A DNA stretch of 33,755 nt. Source: a virus. Position numbers and translations under genes: made by a program. Position 1 is the stretch's first letter. Every line of letters begins with the position of its first letter. The notes beneath the pieces are model-generated. The model did no database searches. It had not been told where the DNA came from and saw nothing but the letters and a program-made list of their open reading frames with translations. The stretch is from positions 1 to 33,755 of the IMG/VR virus record IMGVR_UViG_3300021956_000008; one strand, written 5' to 3'. This document shows, piece after piece, positions 1-33,755 of this stretch.

Positions 1-127
1 ATACCTGTACCACTTGGCGAAATCCAACAAGCATAAATAAAAGAATGTTGGATAATATCTTCAATCTTGCTGCCTAAGTCTTTAACCTTATCAAAATCTA
101 AAACTATAAGATTGCTATGCTCTAATA
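1..127. repeat. Terminal direct repeat, left copy (circular-genome overlap)
   Basis: These 127 bases are identical to 33629-33755. Joining the copies keeps the minus-strand primase-helicase frame open across the junction, so the window is a circular (or circularly permuted) molecule of 33,628 bp written with a redundant end. A length of exactly 127 matches a common maximum assembler k-mer, which points to an assembly overlap rather than a biological terminal repeat. Confidence 0.95.
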
Positions 128-326
128 ATTCATTATCTTTACGTTCAAGGAATACGCCACTAAATAATACTGCTGGTAGTTTCTTTTTTGCAGCATCATC
201 TTTATACTTTCTAAGTTTATCAACTTTATCCTTACTATTTCCATTTGCGATACGTTGTAAAGCATCATCAATACTTATGTATGTAGGCTGTTTATCGAAT
301 AAAGAGTTAAAGTAAGTAACTTGCAT
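1..326 (-). CDS. Primase-helicase (BT4734/VirE-N + DUF3987), N-terminal part of the gene spanning the join
   Basis: Residues 1-108 of a 711-aa protein that continues at 33628 on the same strand; codon 109 (Ile) uses bases 2, 1 and 33628. The ATG at 326 lies just after a T-rich terminator-like hairpin. The visible part is a BT4734-like/VirE N-terminal domain, a family related to archaeo-eukaryotic primases: a hydrophobic strand ending LDFD (residues 76-79, the D-x-D metal site) followed by SPSGTGIK (103-110), the second conserved motif. It probably makes primers at the phage origin. It is the last gene of the leftward replication operon. The rest is described under 31819-33755. Confidence 0.85.
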   Translation of the reverse strand, partial: MQVTYFNSLFDKQPTYISIDDALQRIANGNSKDKVDKLRKYKDDAAKKKLPAVLFSGVFLERKDNELLEHSNLIVLDFDKVKDLGSKIEDIIQHSFIYACWISPSGTG

Positions 327-330
327 ATTT

Positions 331-420
331 AAAAATAAAACGGCTCTTTGCTTTGCCTAAGGTAGCAGCTTAGGAGTGCATTGAGCCGTTAATAAGATAA
401 TCAAACCTGCTACGTTTGAG
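331..420 (-). promoter_or_regulatory. Structured leader: two hairpins with complementary loops, the second inside a terminator-like stem
   Basis: Read on the minus strand, the 103-nt gap before the primase-helicase holds hairpin 1 (TCAAAC, 7-nt loop GTAGCAG, GTTTGA; 401-419), then an outer 8-bp stem AACGGCTC/GAGCCGTT (383-390 with 339-346) enclosing hairpin 2 (CCTAAG, 7-nt loop CTGCTAC, CTTAGG; 356-374). The outer stem is followed by TTTTATTTTT and, after 4 nt, the ATG at 326. The two loops are exact reverse complements, so they could form a 7-bp kissing interaction. The stem plus T-tract resembles an intrinsic terminator. I infer an attenuator or other structured regulatory RNA. It could alternatively be a DNA cruciform. 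Confidence 0.6.
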
Positions 421-429
421 ATTGTAAAG

Positions 430-696
430 TTAAGGAGTTTTACAAATATCTTGCATATCAATATTTGTATAAGTTTTTATAAATTGTCTAAGTTCTTTTC
501 CACATTGTTCAGCCATTGCATTGCAAGTGATTAAGTCGATATTTTCATTTTGCATTAAATCAAACATCTTATTCGTAAGCACATCCATCATTATTATTGT
601 AGCATTATACATATCATCATTTGTATATTGTTTACGTTGTTCCGCTGTTAATAAACAATAATTAGATGTTGTATTTAGTATTGTTGATACTATCAT
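430..696 (-). CDS. Hypothetical protein (88 aa)
   Basis: An 88-aa, largely helical, soluble-looking protein with two cysteines near the middle and C-terminal end (NAMAEQCGKEL, MQDICKTP) and a Met-rich centre. It starts 5 nt after the stop of the DnaA-domain gene and is the last short gene before the structured leader of the primase-helicase. No family recognised. Its place in a compact replication operon suggests an accessory replication role, which is inference only. Confidence 0.6.
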   Translation of the reverse strand: MIVSTILNTTSNYCLLTAEQRKQYTNDDMYNATIIMMDVLTNKMFDLMQNENIDLITCNAMAEQCGKELRQFIKTYTNIDMQDICKTP

Positions 697-701
697 AATT
701 G

Positions 702-1292
702 TTAAAGTTGTATAATTTTATTACGTTTATTGCTTGAAATTAATAATTTAGTTTTGTTTTCAATTTCTCCAACTTTCAATCCAGCTTTCTTAACAACATC
801 AATAGCTATTTGCACCTGGCTTATAAAATCGAAATCGTTTTGCTCAATCCATTTTTGAGCATTACGGATATTATGTATTACAGTTGAATGGTCGCAACCG
901 CCTAAATATTCTCCTATTGATTGTAAACTTACAATTCCTTTTAAAGCATTATATGTAATGTATGCAAATATTTCTCTCCTACGCACATATTCAGGAGTTC
1001 TATTGCGTTTAATTAGTTTGTCATAATCATAATTAAACTCCGTACCTAATACATAACAATAAGCTGTTAATATAGTTTCAGCACTTGTTCCATATAAGTT
1101 AGCTGGTAGTTTATCAACGTGTCTAAATAGTTCTTTTTTTTCGTTTGTTTCAGTAGTCATATCTTTTAAAATTTTGATTTCGTTGGCAATAAATGTTCGG
1201 TCTATTTTCTTTTGTTGCAGTTCGAGTGAAATGTTGTTGATAACATCATTTAATAACTCTTTTTTTAGTAGTGTAAATTCGTTAGATTTCAT
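702..1292 (-). CDS. DnaA domain IV-containing DNA-binding protein
   Basis: A 196-aa protein whose residues about 97-150 match the C-terminal DNA-binding domain of bacterial DnaA: basic helix around RRREIFAYITYNAL, then the signature GGCDHSTVIH (131-140), which parallels the DnaA consensus GGRDHSTV that contacts the DnaA box. There is no AAA+ ATPase (no Walker A); residues 1-90 are a different helical region. It probably recognises origin sequences or recruits host replication proteins. It overlaps the VRR-NUC gene by 11 nt and lies in the replication operon. The family assignment is firm; the role as phage origin-binding protein is inference. Confidence 0.8.
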   Translation of the reverse strand: MKSNEFTLLKKELLNDVINNISLELQQKKIDRTFIANEIKILKDMTTETNEKKELFRHVDKLPANLYGTSAETILTAYCYVLGTEFNYDYDKLIKRNRTPEYVRRREIFAYITYNALKGIVSLQSIGEYLGGCDHSTVIHNIRNAQKWIEQNDFDFISQVQIAIDVVKKAGLKVGEIENKTKLLISSNKRNKIIQL

Positions 1293-6208: not shown

Positions 6209-8710
6209 ATGAACTACGATGATTTTTTAAAGAGTAAAATAGTATGTGCTGAAAAGTTCGGTATAGATACAAAGGACATACAACTAACTCAAAAACTATT
6301 TCCACACCAAAAGGATATTGTTAATTGGGCTATTGAAGGCGGTCGCCGTGCAATATTTGCTAGTTTTGGATTGGGCAAAACGTTTATGCAAATTGAGATA
6401 GCTAAACAACTTATACTTAAATTCAATAAGCCTTTTCTTATAGTTTGTCCCTTGGGTGTTAGTGGAGAATTTAAACGTGATAATAGTAAACTTAATACAG
6501 GATTGAAAATTAGCTATATTACTGACACAGACTCCATACAAAACTATGAGCCACAAATCTATTTAACAAACTACGAGCGTGTAAGAAAAGGAGATATAGA
6601 TGCAAGTTTATTTATAGGGGTAAGTTTTGATGAAGCAAGTATATTAAGGAATTTACAAACTGAAACAACAAACTATGTTTTAAAACACTTTAGAAAAGTG
6701 CAATTTAGGTTTGTTGCAACAGCTACACCAACTCCAAATGATTTTATTGAAATATTAAACTATGCCGATTATTTAGGTGTAATAAGTAGGGGCCACGCTT
6801 TAACAAGGTTTTTTCAACGAGATAGCACAAAAGCTGGGCAACTAAAACTATATGAGAATAAAAAAGATGAGTTTTGGAAATGGGTAAGTAGCTGGGCTGC
6901 TTTTATTAATACACCTGCAGATTTAGGATATGATGATGTAGGCTATAATTTGCCTAAATTAAATATTATAGAGCATTGCATAAAGTACAATGCTAAAGAT
7001 CAACCATTAAATAAATGGGGAGAGCCTATATTATTTAAAGATTTAAGCAAATCATTATTAGAAGTTAGTAAGGAAAAAAGAGATAGTTTAGGAGCAAGGA
7101 TTAATAAAGCTGTTGAAATAGCTGAAAGTATTGATGACAATATTATTATTTGGCATCATTTGGAATCCGAAAGAGTTGCACTTGAACAATCTTTAAAAGA
7201 TACAAATTACAATTCTGTATATGGTGGGCAGCCTAATCAACTTAAAGAAGATTTATTAATAAAGTTTAGTGAAAGTGAATATAAATATTTATTAACAAAA
7301 CCTAAAATAGCTGGTAGTGGTTGCAATTTTCAAAATGCAAGTCATACGATGATATTTGCAGGTATAGATTATAAGTTTAATGACTTTATACAAGCAATAC
7401 ACAGGTGTTATAGATTTGGTCAAAAAAACGAAGTAGATGTACACATTATTTATACTGAGAACGAATACGAAGTAATGAAAACATTGAAAGCGAAATGGAC
7501 TAAGCACATTGAGTTGAATAAACAAATGATTGATTTGGTAAAAAATAATGGTTTAAATAACGAAATAATAAAATCACAAATGGCAAGACAAATATTTAAA
7601 AATGGTAGAAAGGTAACATTTGATAATGTTACATTATATAACAACGATACAGTTGAAGTACATAACGATACAAATGAGATGCCTGATAATAGTGTAGATA
7701 TGATATTGACATCTATACCTTTCGGCGACCATTACGAATACAGCGATAACTACAACGACTTTGGACATAATCACGGCAATGATAAATTCTTTGAGCAAAT
7801 GGATTTTCTTACACCTAATTTGTTGCGTACATTAAAGCCAGGTAGAATAGCTGCAATACACGTTAAAGATAGGATTAGGTACAGTTACCAAAATGGAACA
7901 TCATTTACTACAATTAGCGATTTCAGTGGTCAAACTGTACAAAACTTTATAAAGCATGGTTTTTATTTAATAGGTAAAATAACAGTAACCACAGATGTAG
8001 TTGCTGAGAATAATCAAACATATAGATTAGGTTGGACTGAGCAATGTAAAGATGCAAGTAAAATGGGAGTTGGTTTACCTGAGTATGTTTTACTATTTAG
8101 AAAAGCACCTACAACAATGGACAACGCATATAGCGATACACCTGTAACAAAAGAAAAAACAGAATATACAAAAGCACTTTGGCAATTAGATGCACATAGT
8201 TATCAAAGAAGTTCAGGTGATAGGTTTATGACAAAAGATGAGTTACAAAAAACAGATGTAAAAACAATTGTGGCAAAATGGAAACAATTAAATAAATCAT
8301 CTATTTACGACTTTTTAGAACATTTAAGAGTTTGTGAAGATATGGATGAGTTAGAAAAATTGAGTAGTACATTTATGACTTTACCAGTTCACTCAAATAA
8401 TGATATGGTTTGGACTGATATAAATAGAATGAATACGTTGAATGCGAAACAAGTTAGCAGTAAAAAAGAAAAGCACATTTGCCCTTTACAGTTTGATATA
8501 ATTGAACGTTTAATTAATCGCTATACGATGAAAGGAGAAATTGTTTGCGACCCTTTCGGTGGATTATTTAGCACAGCTTATAAAGCACTTGAAATGAATA
8601 GAAAAGCAGTTAGTGTTGAATTAAATAGCGAGTATTTTAATGATGGGTTATTTTATATAAAATCTATGCTACATAAATTAACCGTACCTACGCTATTTGA
8701 TTTGGTATAA
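6209..8710 (+). CDS. SNF2-type helicase fused to a DNA methyltransferase (833 aa)
   Basis: Residues about 25-440 form a superfamily-2 SNF2-like ATPase: Walker A FGLGKT (53-58), DEAS (141-144), ATATPTPND (170-178) and motif VI IHRCYRFGQ (397-405). Residues about 470-833 form an amino-methyltransferase of the permuted (beta-like) order: catalytic motif IV TSIPFGDHYEY (501-511) before the AdoMet motif DPFGG (781-785), which is followed by a VSVELN strand. The usual SPPY/NPPY is SIPF here, with Ile in place of the first Pro. It may methylate phage DNA as protection from host restriction while translocating. It is the largest early gene and sits beside the recombination genes. Confidence 0.88.
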   Translation: MNYDDFLKSKIVCAEKFGIDTKDIQLTQKLFPHQKDIVNWAIEGGRRAIFASFGLGKTFMQIEIAKQLILKFNKPFLIVCPLGVSGEFKRDNSKLNTGLKISYITDTDSIQNYEPQIYLTNYERVRKGDIDASLFIGVSFDEASILRNLQTETTNYVLKHFRKVQFRFVATATPTPNDFIEILNYADYLGVISRGHALTRFFQRDSTKAGQLKLYENKKDEFWKWVSSWAAFINTPADLGYDDVGYNLPKLNIIEHCIKYNAKDQPLNKWGEPILFKDLSKSLLEVSKEKRDSLGARINKAVEIAESIDDNIIIWHHLESERVALEQSLKDTNYNSVYGGQPNQLKEDLLIKFSESEYKYLLTKPKIAGSGCNFQNASHTMIFAGIDYKFNDFIQAIHRCYRFGQKNEVDVHIIYTENEYEVMKTLKAKWTKHIELNKQMIDLVKNNGLNNEIIKSQMARQIFKNGRKVTFDNVTLYNNDTVEVHNDTNEMPDNSVDMILTSIPFGDHYEYSDNYNDFGHNHGNDKFFEQMDFLTPNLLRTLKPGRIAAIHVKDRIRYSYQNGTSFTTISDFSGQTVQNFIKHGFYLIGKITVTTDVVAENNQTYRLGWTEQCKDASKMGVGLPEYVLLFRKAPTTMDNAYSDTPVTKEKTEYTKALWQLDAHSYQRSSGDRFMTKDELQKTDVKTIVAKWKQLNKSSIYDFLEHLRVCEDMDELEKLSSTFMTLPVHSNNDMVWTDINRMNTLNAKQVSSKKEKHICPLQFDIIERLINRYTMKGEIVCDPFGGLFSTAYKALEMNRKAVSVELNSEYFNDGLFYIKSMLHKLTVPTLFDLV

Positions 8711-31820: not shown

Positions 31821-33755
31821 AAGTTTTAAAAAATTCACCTTGTTTTAATTTGGAAAAGTATCGTTTGAAATCTTTTTTTGCCGTCCAATATTCAAACTTT
31901 CTTTTATTTAGATGTAATTTTTCGCAAATAGTAGCTGCATCCTTTGAAGTAAATTGCTCAGGTAAAGTTTCATAAAGTAATTTATAATCACCTGTTAAAC
32001 CTGTTTCAATTTCTCCATTTAACTGGCTTATTATTTTAATAGTCGAATTAGCATAGTATCTATAAACATCATAAGCATATTGTACTATTTCAGCTGTTAT
32101 TTGTGGCGTTTCAGGATTGTGTAGTATTGCTATTATTTGACAAAGTCTTGGAAAATACGCAGTCATCTTAGCTTCAGTACCTATAATATATTGTTCTACT
32201 TTATTTAAAATTCTATCATTTGCAGCGTTCAAATTTTCTTTATAATATTTTCTATATAACTCTTTGGCATCAAATGTGATATGGATATTTGTTTGCATTA
32301 AATGTGAGTTGTATTCATAACCAGCATTAAACAAATATCTAACAATATCACTCCAATCTTGGCACATCTCACGTCCTTTGCTGAATGGGTCAATATCGGT
32401 ATTCAATTCAATATAATCACTTTCAACCATTAAGAACCTGGATGCAAAACCACTACTCAATTTATCTTCAGTAAATATGTTTTTAAGTCGGCTCGGTTGT
32501 GTACCCATTAATAAGTTTAGATTAAGATTTGCCACTACACGTTCCTTAGTTTCATCTGCTCTAATTTGAGTGGTCCTACCACCACTAAATGCCTGTGTGA
32601 AAAAACTAATAGCATCGTTATTGCTTTTGAAACTACCAGCGTTTAGGATTGTTTCAGCTTCATCCTGGTAAACGCCAATACCATTAGGTTGTACCATAGA
32701 TTTTGAAATATATCCTTCAGTTGTTCCATCTACTGCAATAGGAATAAAACGGCTTGGGCGTTTCTTTTCAAATGATTGTTTATTATGTTTAGCTTCCATT
32801 TGAGCCACTTGCCAGGCTTTTAAGTCTGCATCAAATTGTTTGTCGAAGTGGCTTTGTATTTCTTTTAAAGGTGTTTCGCACATCACTTTAAATGCTGGAG
32901 TTTTACCAACGCTCACAGGTGCAATAAGCAAAGCGAATAGAATATTTTTGCCGTCGCCGTTAAATTCGCTCACATATCTACTGCCAGCCAAAGCTGAGAC
33001 GGTCCACAATCCTGCTGTTGCAACAAATGATGGGCAAAGACTTCGAGCTTCACAAACTTCTAAAATTGAGTTAGCAATAGGACCAGGAAATATATGTAAA
33101 GGAAATTCAGGTAATTTAGGTAATACAAGTTCTAAGTTAGTAGTAATATCAACTGCTATTTGTTTATTATTAAATGTAGCTGTGTTAAATTTATTACTGC
33201 GATATGCTGAGCGAATAGATGCGTTAAACTCACGCTCAGTATAACCACCACCAAAATTAATTTCAAACTTAATTAATGAACGTGCAACACTTTCATCAAT
33301 GCCAAATCTACAACAAGCTGAAGCTAATTTGAAAACAAAAAGATTGCGATTTCCATTTGTAAAATAATCATTACGTTTAGCCAACCATTTTTTTATGAGT
33401 TCAAAAGTTTCATCGGTACTTTTTATTTCGGTTGAACCTGTGATTATTGTTTCCTTTATTTGAGCAAATGCTGTGGCGTTTTCGTTGATATAAATATTAG
33501 GGTCATAACTTTCAAAACACGCCCTACTTTCATTTGAGCCACTACTATCTAAGTCGGTAAATATATCTTGTAAAGCTGCGTAGTGTAAACGATGTTTTGA
33601 GCCATCTTTAACTTTGGCAAGTGCCTTAATACCTGTACCACTTGGCGAAATCCAACAAGCATAAATAAAAGAATGTTGGATAATATCTTCAATCTTGCTG
33701 CCTAAGTCTTTAACCTTATCAAAATCTAAAACTATAAGATTGCTATGCTCTAATA
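31819..33755 (-). CDS. Primase-helicase (BT4734/VirE-N + DUF3987), main part; continues at 326..1
   Basis: With the part at 1-326 this gives a 711-aa protein; 33629-33755 is the redundant copy. The frame is open without a stop across 33384, where a TTG could be mistaken for a start. Layout: primase-like N-terminal domain (1-150); a PriCT-like helical region (about 180-255, with GNRNLFVFKLASACCRFGI and a closing EREFNASIRSAY); then a DUF3987 ATPase with Walker A-like PVSVGKT (about 346-352) and DEAE (431-434). It probably primes and unwinds DNA for phage replication. The stop codon overlaps a strong terminator. Confidence 0.85.
   Translation of the reverse strand, partial: LEHSNLIVLDFDKVKDLGSKIEDIIQHSFIYACWISPSGTGIKALAKVKDGSKHRLHYAALQDIFTDLDSSGSNESRACFESYDPNIYINENATAFAQIKETIITGSTEIKSTDETFELIKKWLAKRNDYFTNGNRNLFVFKLASACCRFGIDESVARSLIKFEINFGGGYTEREFNASIRSAYRSNKFNTATFNNKQIAVDITTNLELVLPKLPEFPLHIFPGPIANSILEVCEARSLCPSFVATAGLWTVSALAGSRYVSEFNGDGKNILFALLIAPVSVGKTPAFKVMCETPLKEIQSHFDKQFDADLKAWQVAQMEAKHNKQSFEKKRPSRFIPIAVDGTTEGYISKSMVQPNGIGVYQDEAETILNAGSFKSNNDAISFFTQAFSGGRTTQIRADETKERVVANLNLNLLMGTQPSRLKNIFTEDKLSSGFASRFLMVESDYIELNTDIDPFSKGREMCQDWSDIVRYLFNAGYEYNSHLMQTNIHITFDAKELYRKYYKENLNAANDRILNKVEQYIIGTEAKMTAYFPRLCQIIAILHNPETPQITAEIVQYAYDVYRYYANSTIKIISQLNGEIETGLTGDYKLLYETLPEQFTSKDAATICEKLHLNKRKFEYWTAKKDFKRYFSKLKQGEFFKT
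33629..33755. repeat. Terminal direct repeat, right copy
   Basis: Identical to 1-127; see that entry. It should be removed once when the circle is closed. Confidence 0.95.

Follow-up and report, generated by a model that had tools for sequence, protein, structure and literature searches.

The primase-helicase gene of the virus record IMGVR_UViG_3300021956_000008 is preceded by a short leader with two hairpins, the loops of which could pair with each other, and by a T-rich tract after the second hairpin. The question raised by this locus is whether the two loops do pair, and what such a contact would mean for the gene behind it. In what follows, the window is the whole stretch of DNA analyzed (33,755 nucleotides), and positions refer to it.

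The leader and its genome

The window begins and ends with a 127-bp exact direct repeat (1-127 and 33629-33755), so that the contig is most likely a closed circular phage genome of 33,628 bp, in which the genes at the contig ends, the primase among them, are split. The features around the leader are as follows:

3..326, minus strand: start of the primase-helicase gene (BT4734-like_N and DUF3987), which extends past the contig ends as far as 31819 and encodes 711 aa
331..338, minus strand: U-tract TTATTTTT, from the sequence
339..390, minus strand: HP2, the terminator hairpin, whose 7-nt loop CTGCTAC (368-362) is the complement of the HP1 loop
391..400, minus strand: AU-rich linker TTATCTTATT, 10 nt
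401..419, minus strand: HP1, the 5' hairpin, 6 bp with a 7-nt loop GTAGCAG (413-407), from the fold and homologues
425..432, minus strand: promoter element resembling a -7 box, TAACTTTA (consensus TAnnTTTG), which overlaps with the upstream gene's stop codon, from the sequence and homologues
430..696, minus strand: upstream 88-aa ORF without a family match, ending at the promoter-like element

The stem of HP1 pairs 419-414 (TCAAAC) with 406-401 (GTTTGA). HP2 has an 8-bp outer stem (390-383, AACGGCTC, with 346-339, GAGCCGTT), a 6-bp inner stem (374-369, CCTAAG, with 361-356, CTTAGG) and, between them, an internal loop with a 3-bp TGC/GCA step. The U-tract is followed by AAAT and then by the primase ATG (326-324). 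Both of these elements had been described in the initial annotation, namely 6-bp hairpins with loops that are exact reverse complements and an outer stem with a T-rich tract directly before the primase-helicase ATG, and both were confirmed on the minus strand. At the leader spacing, this complementary loop pair is found a single time in the window and in none of 100 window shuffles, and the leader folds with a minimum free energy of -27.1 kcal/mol (z = -3.95), a stability reached by none of 200 shuffles. Lone GTAGCAG copies elsewhere in the window are found at chance frequency, with no excess of loop targets in trans. The promoter match is imperfect (TAACTTTA vs TAnnTTTG), and no good -33 element was seen by eye upstream of the window leader.

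No Rfam 15 family matched the leader at the gathering threshold in the window and 36 related loci, where only tRNAs were matched, and a permissive scan of the window leader gave chance-level matches only. No description of such a leader was found in the open-access literature. The earlier statement that it resembles no recognized riboswitch or phage RNA is thus supported by the lack of an Rfam family.

Two other proteins of the window are of note. Beside the primase, 702-1292 (minus strand) encodes a protein of 196 aa that matches the C-terminal DNA-binding motif of DnaA (domain IV, Pfam E 4.5e-12) and for which the related-locus search found no relative in viral contigs. Positions 6209-8710 (plus strand) encode an 833-aa protein with matches to both helicase and N6/N4 DNA methylase families.

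Compensatory changes in the two loops

Relatives were found in IMG/VR through the primase, their leaders not being picked for complementarity, and these leaders were folded by a constrained-fold scan. A leader could be read in five primase homologues, window included; each of the five has a complementary loop pair, and the sequences differ: CCGACA/TGTCGG (L005), GTAGAGA/TCTCTAC (L006), TGCGGG/CCCGCA (L007) and TAAGGC/GCCTTA (L009) in the four others. No leader was seen by eye or with a strict hairpin scan in the first distant primase relatives (L002-L004), the same scan having missed L005 and L006. The primases of L005 and L006 are 62-63% identical to that of the window in the C-terminal helicase half and unrelated in appearance in the N-terminal primase half, which, as read from the sequences, is a domain swap.

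Cultured Flavobacterium phages gave a second comparison, in which the homologous stretch of elemoA-D was fetched with the elemoE leader by flank similarity (75% identity). The loops are GTGGAGG/CCTCCAC in elemoE and TGAGAGC/GCTCTCA at the same site in elemoA-D; promoter and U-tract are near-identical, yet both loops have been replaced together. In two alignments, 100% of the cells of the kissing helix are paired, with both sides changed in 4/7 and 4/8 pairs, and none of 500 shuffles reached its paired percentage or its covariation score. Sliding the helix by 1-3 columns left roughly 30-49% paired. The compensatory change between two loops that marks a kissing-loop RNA is therefore present in related phages, where the initial annotation had proposed to look for it, and the loop-loop contact is backed by strong compensatory covariation. 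The RNA structure itself is very likely real.

The survey was widened with the upstream VRR-NUC-like endonuclease (alignment A2), which added 80 viral and 47 genomic loci. A scan for complementary loop pairs beside this gene gave about 35 further leaders, and a loop-blind search for terminators directly before an ATG, at loci where the pair scan had given none, yielded 12 distinct leaders. The endonuclease of L009 (567-1418) carries an N-terminal extension of ~120 residues that is absent from the other four aligned.

Since the scan and pattern collections select for complementarity, and pairing there is 100% by construction, two further tests were used, the elemo comparison above and a mismatched pattern. 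In viral contigs, the pattern GTAGCAG..CTGCTAC..T-tract had promoter, stems and ATG in 24 of 51 distinct matches, against 0 of 15 for the same pattern with one mismatched base. Among 45 distinct units set by terminator, TAnnTTTG and ATG only, 32 pair with their own 5' loop (baselines of 7.9% when cross-paired and 4.2% when shuffled). The curated survey of phage contigs comprises 71 leaders; their pairing strings, 6-10 nt long, number 37, or 29 once contained strings are removed. Three scan matches judged spurious (L139, TGCTAAAT; L152, TGCAAGC; L033, GCCAAGA) were dropped from it.

Builds, neighbors and distribution

The leaders occur in three builds. Build Ia, that of the window, has a short HP1, a single-stranded linker and a long HP2 with an internal loop; build Ib has a long HP1, a linker hairpin and a short HP2; and in build II the partner of the 8-nt HP1 loop is a complementary bulge, likewise of 8 nt, in the 3' arm of a long terminator hairpin. 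Build II accounts for 11 of the 12 distinct leaders from the loop-blind search, and probably for the twelfth (L040) as well. Its loop and bulge sequences change (GTGAAACC/GGTTTCAC, GTGAGATC/GATCTCAC, GTAGAACC/GGTTCTAC and others), and the loop-bulge pairs covary over the build II loci L034, L035, L041, L045, L047, L049, L050, L051, L052, L055, L059, L064 and L073.

All share a GC-rich hairpin and then a U-tract between promoter and coding sequence, the layout of an intrinsic terminator or attenuator, with 0-19 nt from the last TTTT to the ATG. Purines usually dominate the 5' loop (33 of 40 strings, in the set before curation). In homologous leaders, the TAnnTTTG box mostly lies 3-7 nt before HP1, most often 4; as the -7 box of Flavobacterium psychrophilum is at -12 to -5 (PMC9723704), transcription is predicted to start at about the first base of HP1. 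The lengths of HP1 and HP2 trade off, with a sum near 22 bp (Spearman -0.66, raw and with kinship ignored), and a linker hairpin is present in 24 of 34 leaders with a long HP1 and 3 of 23 others (raw counts, kinship ignored). Trade-off and linker hairpins together suggest that both stems, when docked, are present in the same molecule.

Unrelated genes follow these leaders: DUF3987 primases, a DnaG-type primase, a Lin1244_N (Lin1244-type) protein, GIY-YIG and NUMOD4/HNH nucleases, N6/N4 methyltransferases and TnpB. On the viral contig L167, a kissing leader (383-468) lies directly before the TnpB gene (OrfB_IS605, Cas12f1-like TNB). Hence, of the proposed switch for a replication gene, the terminator before such a gene stands, but its specificity for replication genes does not. 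Where two leaders share a contig, their loops always differ. This holds for all 13 such pairs, of which about seven look independent on inspection; in one of them the loops are GTAGCAG and GTAGGAG, and each has a partner that matches it exactly. This argues for pairing in cis or self-dimers and not for a shared RNA in trans, so that the dimerization suggested earlier is unlikely between different leaders and possible between copies of one.

Among seven named records tested, two, both of cultured phages, carry leaders. That of Flavobacterium phage 11b (CGGGCAGG/CCTGCCCG) lies before gp62, and that of elemoE precedes a 61-aa ORF, a replication protein and a primase/helicase. Against named phages, blastn with the leader region gave chance matches only, and tblastn with the endonuclease of the window gave none. 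The GTAGCAG pattern had no match among 395 Bacteroidota genomes, and this version thus looks virus-borne. A search of genome contigs with the primase alignment found no relatives, and the Bacteroidota genome loci found with the endonuclease alignment held no convincing leaders. At two Bacteroidales genome loci (L104 near 1429, L110 near 853), a terminator lies directly before an integrase-looking ORF of 432-453 aa. The RNA is predicted to begin with TGTGAA, the complement of which, TTCACA, lies within the terminator; bacterial mobile elements may follow the same principle.

Proposed function and comparison with known systems

On balance, the leader is probably a cis-acting transcription attenuator held by the covarying kissing interaction, as far as sequence analysis can tell. 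Transcription would start at the base of HP1 from a predicted host sigma-A promoter, and HP1 would fold first; once the terminator hairpin emerges, its apical loop (an internal bulge in some leaders) would form 6-10 Watson-Crick pairs with the HP1 loop, and a compact kissing fold would result around the terminator. A transcript of ~90 nt, ending at the U-tract, is expected, and the next gene, whose ATG comes directly after the U-tract, would be expressed only on read-through. The U-tract and the ATG lie too close together for a second promoter between them, and the gene should therefore rely on this read-through. Docking may tune termination, and some signal would set the read-through, perhaps a protein that recognizes the shape, because the loop sequence is free to vary. 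Pairing, placement and overall size are maintained although the pairing sequences are free to change, and selection thus appears to act on the docked shape rather than on the letters.

The initial annotation left open whether the contact competes with the terminator or stabilizes it. Apical-loop kissing (builds Ia and Ib) is compatible with a closed terminator stem and may thus stabilize the terminator rather than oppose it; the contact could favor termination, or the docked form could be what a factor recognizes in order to release it. No alternative antiterminator pairing, as in a classical switch, was found.

The same promoter box, predicted +1 at HP1 and U-tract end, as well as the very diverse downstream genes, could also belong to a stand-alone phage small RNA whose kissing fold is functional in itself (protein-bound or decay-resistant) and against which the next gene is merely packed. 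We consider this unlikely, as the U-tract abuts the ATG in nearly all cases, leaving no room for a separate promoter, and genomes carry several different leaders with differing loops. Less likely again is a 5' untranslated region controlling translation or mRNA stability, in which the docked hairpins would gate ribosome access or protect the 5' end, and the U-tract would only be an unstructured initiation region. The hairpin does end within about 10-20 nt of the ATG, and flavobacterial ribosomes do not use Shine-Dalgarno pairing (PMC9976891); however, intrinsic terminators typically consist of a GC-rich stem with a U-tract behind it, and all types retain this layout.

Two copies of one leader might instead pair loop to loop in trans, in the manner of the phi29 prohead RNA rings. 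Each molecule has both complementary loops, and their self-specificity fits homodimers as well as cis pairing, but the trade-off between HP1 and HP2 and the linker hairpins, kinship ignored, suggest the geometry of one molecule, and short linkers favor cis; we regard such self-dimers or multimers as improbable. A DNA-level element (cruciform or replication origin), to which the position before the primase in the window might point, is highly improbable given the strand-specific order of U-tract, promoter and ATG in all leaders, the excess of G-U over A-C on the sense strand (12 vs 2-3 cells in alignment A4) and the many leaders before non-replication genes.

If attenuation is the correct reading, many Bacteroidota phages would control genes through regulated termination right at the start codon, and the ribosomes of this phylum do without Shine-Dalgarno pairing. 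It is possible, and we propose it tentatively, that the leader is a general gene-control module borne by Bacteroidota phages before many unrelated genes, a self-kissing terminator recognized by shape, with loops diversified for self-only pairing and a common trans-acting factor or infection-stage signal as the gate. It appears to be a structured-RNA class with strong covariation support that is undescribed so far. The class was found by pairing and not by sequence, which may explain its absence from sequence- and consensus-based RNA searches. The cultured carriers, Flavobacterium phages 11b and elemo, make the leader testable now, and its swappable loops would give ready orthogonal control parts.

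Several known systems share part of this anatomy. The prohead RNA of phi29, which pairs in trans and forms rings in the packaging motor, likewise has complementary covarying loops within one phage RNA, whereas here they belong to a leader with a U-tract and an ATG. In ColE1 RNAI/RNAII and pT181-type antisense control, loop-loop helices of 6-7 nt are also fully paired, and in pT181 the contact controls a terminator, but there the pairing joins two RNAs transcribed from opposite strands, whereas the leader has both loops in a single sense RNA and implies no antisense transcript. The HK022 put RNA and lambda nut are structured RNAs near the 5' end of a phage transcript that control termination in cis, as here, but they act on downstream terminators, whereas in the leader the terminator is itself part of the structured RNA, the sequence of which is not conserved. 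The C4 antisense RNA of P1/P7 phages (RF01695) is again a phage RNA with pairing segments that control a downstream gene, but it acts by antisense pairing to a target leader, and the window leader has no Rfam match at the gathering threshold. In place of the conserved ligand-binding core of a riboswitch, stems and loops vary freely with pairing kept, and the downstream genes share no common function, metabolite or metabolic gene set. In kind, the leader appears to be an attenuator, and as an RNA class it appears to be new: with intrinsic-terminator attenuator leaders such as riboswitch expression platforms it shares the promoter, the structured 5' leader and the terminator hairpin with its U-tract before the gene, and it differs from them in that no alternative antiterminator stem was found and in that the apical loop, or the bulge, contacts the loop of the 5' hairpin, with the shape conserved and the sequence not.
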